Shown here: in pieces, positions 18,843 through 19,497 of the stretch
How the letters are laid out: each line of letters opens with the position of its first letter
Position numbering within the stretch: position 1 is the first letter of the stretch
Assembly (NCBI GenBank): GCA_018435665.1
Contig: JAHDND010000024.1
Coordinates: 1 to 64,000, forward strand
Length of the DNA stretch: 64,000 bases
DNA from: Candidatus Thiosymbion sp.
Lineage (GTDB): Bacteria > Pseudomonadota > Gammaproteobacteria > Chromatiales > Chromatiaceae
Direction: 5' to 3'
The notes under the pieces: model-generated
Database searches by the model: none
The model's input: only the letters and a program-made list of their open reading frames with translations
What the model was told of the DNA's origin: nothing
Made by a program: the position numbers and the translations under genes

Positions 18843-18874
18843 TCCTCAGGGGGCCGTCCCCTGCCAGAACACAC

Positions 18875-18906
18875 AAAAAAGGGCGTACCGAGGTACGCCC
18901 TTTTTT
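18875..18906. terminator. Bidirectional rho-independent terminator
   Basis: A run of six A, GGGCGTAC, a 4-base loop (CGAG), GTACGCCC and six T form a near-perfect hairpin. It works on either strand, serving the FUN14 gene on the plus strand and the Met-X-Gly gene on the minus strand. Confidence 0.9.
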
Positions 18907-18951
18907 GTGATCGCCAGCCGCAAGGGCCGGCGAATCGTGGCGAGGCGCTTA

Positions 18952-19251
18952 TTACTTGCCTGCCATGCCGCCCATGCCACCCATGCCACCCATGCCCGAC
19001 ATACCGGACATGCCACCCATGCCGCCCATGCCTGACATACCGGACATGCCACCCATGCCGCCCATGCCTGACATACCGGACATGCCGGACATGCCGCCCA
19101 TGCCTGACATACCGGACATGCCACCCATGCCGCCCATGCCTGACATACCGCCCATGCCGGACATACCATCCATGGCCATGGCGGATCCGGAGACGGCGAT
19201 GGTGCTGACGAACAGAGCAGTCTTAACAGCCTTGGTAAGGGACATACCCAT
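18952..19251 (-). CDS. Secreted protein made of Met-X-Gly triplets
   Basis: The 99-residue precursor has a clear signal peptide (residues 1-26, SLTKAVKTALFVSTIAVSG then SAMA) with a likely cut after SAMA. The rest is 24 consecutive triplets Met-(Ser/Gly, once Asp, once Ala)-Gly and a final Lys, so one third Met and about half Gly. At the DNA level four tandem 36-bp units lie at 18998-19141. A perfect AGGAGGT sits six bases before ATG 19251, suggesting strong translation, and a bidirectional terminator follows, so it is a single-gene unit. No family is recognised. Gly at every third position would suit a polyglycine-II helix with Met along one face. Roles in copper/silver binding, oxidant scavenging or sulfur-globule coating are guesses. 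Confidence 0.85.
   Translation of the reverse strand: MGMSLTKAVKTALFVSTIAVSGSAMAMDGMSGMGGMSGMGGMGGMSGMSGMGGMSGMSGMSGMGGMGGMSGMSGMGGMGGMSGMSGMGGMGGMGGMAGK
18998..19141 (-). repeat. Four tandem 36-bp units in the Met-X-Gly gene
   Basis: Units are 18998-19033, 19034-19069, 19070-19105 and 19106-19141. Three are nearly identical and the third has one variant triplet. Each encodes 12 residues (four Met-X-Gly triplets), so copy number may vary between strains without a frameshift. Confidence 0.9.
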
Positions 19252-19497
19252 GTGCTGACCTCCTAAGGTCGTTATTTGGTTTAATTTGAGGTTATAGAAT
19301 TATCAGTTCCAGCCATTCCCGACTATGACAGATTGTCAGGCCTTTTGGCTATTTTCCCTTGATTTTTTAGAATGATAGCGTTAGGTGGAAGTGGCGGGCG
19401 CCGACAGTCCTTGGCAACCCAGTGGCTTGGCCAGGGTTGATCCTCGGCAGGCGCGGTTTCCTTAACCTGGCCGTAATAAGACGGAGCCCGGAAAACG

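Follow-up and report, generated by a model that had tools for sequence, protein, structure and literature searches.

A family of exported Met-x-Gly repeat proteins co-inherited with a DmsA-like molybdenum enzyme in sulfur bacteria

The window analysed is a stretch of 64 000 nucleotides from Candidatus Thiosymbion sp. (GenBank assembly GCA_018435665.1, contig JAHDND010000024.1, positions 1 to 64 000), in which an ATG-initiated ORF on the minus strand encodes a 99-aa protein, here called MxG (table 1). The signal peptide was assigned by eye. Re-translation matched exactly the earlier sequence-only reading of a signal peptide followed by 24 Met-x-Gly triplets and a Lys: the mature chain of 73 aa contains 24 Met (33%), carries S, G, D or A at position x, starts with MDG MSG MGG MSG, ends with MAG K and has no Cys, His or Pro. 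At the DNA level, the gene is a tandem array with 5.6 copies of a 36-bp unit and 90% matches. Two findings support the minus strand as the coding one: the Shine-Dalgarno sequence is conserved, and an ortholog (87% identity) lies in a congeneric genome, again with pbpC and ruvB as divergent neighbours, its repeat codons showing 12 synonymous and 4 non-synonymous differences. The antisense frame at 18956-19258 (plus strand, TTG start) was rejected as a gene; it is a by-product of the repeat and has no signal peptide. Searches of a plasmid collection and of Rfam gave no match. The same genome holds a second MxG gene (G000:C78), with about 57 triplets and the tail DKTWWQFWK.

Table 1. Features in and around the MxG gene of the window.
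Feature	Position	Strand	Basis or remark
MxG repeat protein gene (99 aa)	18952..19251	-	ORF translation; ortholog and paralogs known
Signal peptide, MGMSLTKAVKTALFVSTIAVSGSAMA, probable cleavage after AMA	19174..19251	-	by eye and alignment with relatives
Mature chain, 24 M-x-G triplets + K	18955..19173	-	translation; 36-bp tandem repeat
Shine-Dalgarno AGGAGGT	19258..19264	-	6 nt from ATG; conserved in G001
Conserved CTGATAAT, possible -10 element	19299..19306	-	alignment with G001; inference
Regulatory palindrome, core TGACA-N3-TGTCA at 19326-19338	19325..19339	.	also present at this genome's DmsA-like operon
Bidirectional intrinsic terminator	18872..18909	.	folding

The perfect AGGAGGT and the terminator described from the sequence were both found, the latter, about 43–80 nt downstream of the gene, being common to the convergent FUN14 gene, which it also follows on the 3' side. 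It is a strong one, with a 17-bp hairpin and a U tract, and the 82-nt stretch folds with −48.1 kcal/mol (z −7.3).

MxG proteins are spread over many Gammaproteobacteria, most of them sulfur oxidisers with dsrA, and extend into another class of the phylum; many of 55 related genomes carry them, often several per genome. Most relatives exceed the window protein in length, reaching about 490 aa (G144). Frame, triplet pattern and signal peptide were retained in dozens of them, with neither disruption of the repeat nor loss of the signal peptide seen, and the reading as a real secreted protein holds. MSG/MGG triplet arms are split by short linkers, namely GYFxITPxGxIxFYP, which forms a beta hairpin in the predicted model, WVWVPSG or W[VAF]CTQW, and an aromatic C-terminal tail, for example W-x-P-P, is present in many of the proteins. 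In L177, L178, L179 and L070, the linker W[VAFI]CTQW gives rise to paired Cys-containing segments. MxG stretches also occur on larger proteins: as a tail at the C-terminus of a PQQ-dehydrogenase-like protein (family assigned by eye; L184 / L198:4664-6820, G557:C18), the gene of which is followed by a cytochrome c gene, and ahead of a cytochrome c domain (PF00034; L035:8184-8825, G032:C117).

Pfam, NCBIfam and PHROGs contain no family model for these proteins, in agreement with the sequence-only reading that no such family was known. Collagen and adhesin matches in PDB and NCBIfam and tail matches in PHROGs were rejected as compositional, and weak, low-identity MxG matches in G034 and G045 were left out of the family. 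Named carriers are a Lamellibrachia endosymbiont and Ca. Thiodiazotropha; a scan of named genomes confirmed only these two loci, a low yield that is probably due to low-complexity masking of repeat matches. Literature searches, confined to open-access papers and therefore a weak negative, turned up neither the family nor its partnership with DmsAB. MxG is an undescribed protein family within a conserved gene system in sulfur bacteria.

The repeat itself bears on whether MxG is a structural or adhesive filament, either collagen-like or of the polyglycine-II type. Gly occupies each third position, collagen entries of the PDB are matched by composition, and two of four long relatives exceed the cut-off of the Pfam Collagen model (PF01391), again by composition, with one just below. 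The window protein has no PF01391 match, however, and its repeats lack Pro. Moreover, Met is hardly ever swapped for another hydrophobic residue: across 1788 in-register triplets it fills position 1 in 95%, Leu plus Phe reach about 0.2%, and neither Ile nor Val ranks among the twelve commonest residues there. AlphaFold gave a low-confidence, disordered monomer in which the repeats have pLDDT below 50 and are predicted to be unfolded; the polyglycine-II helix once proposed for this protein is neither shown nor excluded by the model and so gains no support from it. Given also the constant link to a redox enzyme described below, a filament appears very improbable.

In most relatives, one MxG gene sits within a conserved cluster, in the order histidine kinase, sigma-54-type response regulator, small secreted protein, MxG, pentahaem cytochrome c, DmsA-like enzyme, DmsB-like FeS protein and TorD/NarJ-like chaperone (PF02613); a small cytochrome c and a ferredoxin-type protein are often present as well. 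The small secreted protein has the motif IAGxxPxxRPxGAPVI...TPFxxPGMxGxYDIRGW. Most of the kinases carry CxxCH in the sensor part (e.g. L034:3770-5623, CPxxCH-like), a motif that suggests a haem-c sensor. No DmsC-like membrane anchor was seen among the cluster genes scanned or read. The window gene stands alone, outside the cluster, which in the same genome is located on contig C26. Several clusters also encode, between regulator and small secreted protein, a secreted GW protein of 250 aa (L034:6182-6943, L039:6105-6860, L042:10385-11242, L158); its repeated motifs, GW...G[DS][LI]...P, resemble the MxG linker GYFxITPxGxIxFYP, and in G156 the GW protein runs on, as judged by eye, into an OmpA-like domain. 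In G010, an MxG gene with the palindrome upstream adjoins a secreted MsrA-MsrB fusion and a ResA/TlpA-like thioredoxin.

These neighbourhoods speak to the proposal that MxG scavenges Cu(I) or Ag(I), its thioether sites binding soft metals in the periplasm. The mature window protein would suit such a function by composition only, with one third Met and no Cys; it has no His, however, the constant partner is a molybdenum reductase, and no copper, silver or other metal-handling gene was recognised in the neighbourhoods read. The direct metal role suggested earlier from the sequence is not supported, and metal scavenging is highly unlikely.

The DmsA-like enzyme is Tat-exported and has DmsA/YnfE (TIGR02166) as its best NCBIfam match, at 607 bits, which falls below the curated cut-off of 777.7 bits. 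It can be aligned with DMSO and TMAO reductases whose structures are solved, and a serine that is invariant in 19 of 19 sequences aligns with Ser147, the Mo ligand, of 1eu1 (DorA); a serine at this position points to S-/N-oxide reductase chemistry. The FeS motif reads CAHNCGSRH (L034:9739-12303 and relatives), with a His at the position that the third Cys of the motif takes in DmsA. In lucinid symbionts, dmsAB genes near a divergent soxY have been mentioned (PMC11237559).

For analysis of co-inheritance, the 55 related genomes were searched with the G013 enzyme as query, positives having at least 76% identity. The enzyme was present in 17 genomes, all of which have MxG, compared with one MxG carrier (G002) among the 38 enzyme-negative genomes (Fisher 3e-13 over 55 genomes); the G002 contig carries kinase, regulator, small protein and MxG, and ends inside MxG. 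In a class sample of 369 genomes, 16 had the enzyme, 13 had MxG and 12 had both (Fisher 2e-18), although the p-values of both samples are optimistic, as the genomes are related and not independent. The apparent enzyme-only cases of the class sample have MxG after all: an MxG gene lies just upstream of the enzyme in G144 and G195, and an in-frame MxG end just upstream, at the contig edge, in G209 and G258. G156 was counted among the genomes with both, but the one MxG stretch it has belongs to an EF-hand protein encoded elsewhere, and it is best regarded as an exception. A phylum sample of 299 genomes contained four MxG carriers outside the class, and all four have the enzyme close by, at 78–82% identity. 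The case for a functional link between MxG and the DmsA-like enzyme is strong.

A further tie is the palindrome, the TGACA-N3-TGTCA core of which occurs once in the 64 kb of the window (0.03 expected) and just twice in the 5.0-Mb genome, upstream both of the window gene and of the cytochrome–DmsA operon on C26; a reversed control pattern had no occurrence in the genome. It is kept in the sister genome G001, where the adjacent bases have changed, and a relaxed form, CTG[AC]CA-N3-TG[TG]CAG, is found ahead of the cluster in many genomes, some of them outside the class. In many clusters, a sigma-54 -24/-12 site (at least 10/12 matches, as found at 0.9% of random positions) lies 70–114 nt downstream of the palindrome, and with this arrangement the palindrome would suit a site bound by the sigma-54-type regulator of the cluster. 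At the window gene, the centre of the palindrome is about 81 nt from the ATG, too near for the layout of the cluster, and no sigma-54 -24/-12 promoter was found between the two; the conserved CTGATAAT suggests another promoter type here. On the opposite side, a sigma-54-like TGGCAACCCAGTGGCT (score 9, 19412-19427, plus strand) lies between the palindrome and pbpC and faces pbpC. It was rejected as a sigma-54 promoter: it is not kept in G001, and 27% of random regions contain a site as good. The palindrome might belong to pbpC and not to the window gene, but pbpC is an unlikely target because TGGCAACCCAGTGGCT is not conserved in G001.

Taken together, the data are probably best explained by MxG acting as an unfolded Met/MetO oxidant sink that is recharged by the DmsAB-like reductase. 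The window gene would encode an exported, natively unfolded methionine buffer, whose closely spaced and exposed Met residues, in the context G-M-[S/G]-G, would be converted to methionine sulfoxide by periplasmic oxidants. The co-inherited periplasmic DmsAB-like Mo reductase would restore methionine from the sulfoxides with electrons arriving via the pentahaem cytochrome c, and MxG would thus cycle between oxidised and reduced forms as a rechargeable sink. The two-component system, with its sigma-54-type regulator and a sensor that usually has the CxxCH haem-c motif, would act through the palindrome on the cluster; the window gene would be a satellite copy bearing the cluster's palindrome, and may likewise be under the control of the cluster's regulator.

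The chain is proposed as the substrate because an enzyme of the S-oxide reductase type is hardly ever found without an exported Met chain, and the location of MxG beside the MsrAB fusion in G010 provides an independent link to Met sulfoxide. Protein-bound MetO is a substrate of Rhodobacter sphaeroides DorA, with the context GAGM(O)Q preferred over PGYM(O)EE (PMC7402097). Among the functions guessed at in the sequence-only reading, oxidant absorption is thereby the best supported, through the enzyme link and the MsrAB neighbour; MxG as the enzyme's substrate, the Met/MetO chemistry and the electron route are what we infer from them. Points counted against the sink are the position of the window gene off the cluster, the absence of a sigma-54 promoter between its palindrome and ATG, the chance that the palindrome serves pbpC, the G156 exception and the dsrA enrichment given next.

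A different role would be that of a sulfur-surface protein, with MxG coating periplasmic sulfur globules or binding polysulfide and the enzyme acting on sulfur species. In the class sample, 14 of the 16 genomes with the enzyme have dsrA, versus 104 of 353 others (p 4e-6), an enrichment that suits a sulfur role too. Both named carriers count on the same side, as do the Gly/Tyr/Pro-rich secreted proteins of G032, G005 and G010 to which MxG stretches are fused; 11 of the 55 related genomes have repeat-free relatives of these proteins. Against this, 104 of the 118 dsrA genomes have no enzyme and most of them no MxG, two enzyme-positive genomes have no dsrA match, the serine ligand marks the enzyme as an S-/N-oxide reductase type, and the Gly/Tyr/Pro-rich proteins match no family model, so that their identity as sulfur-globule proteins is putative. 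A sulfur-surface coat, also raised by the sequence-only reading, is a possible function that is weaker than oxidant absorption and, overall, unlikely. The Gly/Tyr/Pro-rich secreted proteins in which MxG stretches are inserted (L041, L047, L072, L074) are widespread in the family; these candidate sulfur-globule proteins feature NMMNPSRWFGG..., PGYGAPGYG, a coiled coil and FRPMxxY.

MxG might, alternatively, be a protein-borne store of electron acceptor, charged to sulfoxide under oxic conditions and respired by the DmsAB-like enzyme under anoxic ones. This is decidedly unlikely; if true, bacteria at oxic–anoxic interfaces would carry a rechargeable acceptor made of protein. The sink, our preferred explanation, predicts that oxidised MxG peptide is a substrate of the DmsAB-like enzyme. 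If it holds, a protein would be the substrate of enzymes that in these bacteria carry no annotation beyond DMSO reductase, and Mo-enzyme-coupled oxidant buffering by Met arose more than once from different parts. The conserved system of MxG, DmsAB-like reductase, pentahaem cytochrome and own regulator extends to animal symbionts. The DmsAB-like cluster, the palindrome, the spread outside the order and the MrpX-MsrPQ precedent considered below all go beyond what the sequence-only reading contained.

Several known systems can be compared. Bacterial collagen-like proteins (SclA/SclB, Lcl) share with MxG the Gly at every third residue and the compositional HMM scores, whereas MxG has no Pro in its repeats and scores far below the curated cut-offs. 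The sulfur globule proteins SgpA-D of Allochromatium vinosum are likewise exported and repetitive and belong to sulfur oxidisers of the same group, but have regularly spaced prolines (PMC10386293); the mature window protein has none, and MxG is tied to a Mo enzyme. The DmsA-like enzyme has the Mo-ligand serine and the fold family of DorA/DmsA, and differs from DmsABC in falling below the DmsA/YnfE cut-off, in its pentahaem cytochrome and in its dedicated Met-rich partner. In Azospira suillum, the Met-rich peptide MrpX is paired with the periplasmic Mo reductase MsrPQ (YedYZ) and was proposed to be a recycled sacrificial sink (PMC4623255), and in BcrXQP of Brucella melitensis a peptide of MXKDX repeats, also with a periplasmic Mo reductase, was proposed as an oxidant sink (PMC8315932). 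Like MrpX and BcrX, MxG is a short, Met-rich repeat peptide that is exported and has a genetic link to a periplasmic Mo reductase. Its repeat is M-x-G, however, not MXKDX, and it has no MXKDX match in NCBIfam; its partner enzyme is of the DMSO-reductase family, whereas MsrP, the partner of MrpX, is a sulfite-oxidase-type enzyme; the electron donor is a multihaem cytochrome instead of MsrQ, and the regulator a sigma-54 two-component system instead of an ECF sigma factor. As repeat, Mo enzyme, donor and regulator all differ, MxG is not a member of the MrpX type but, by analogy, would work like MrpX-MsrPQ as a functional parallel.
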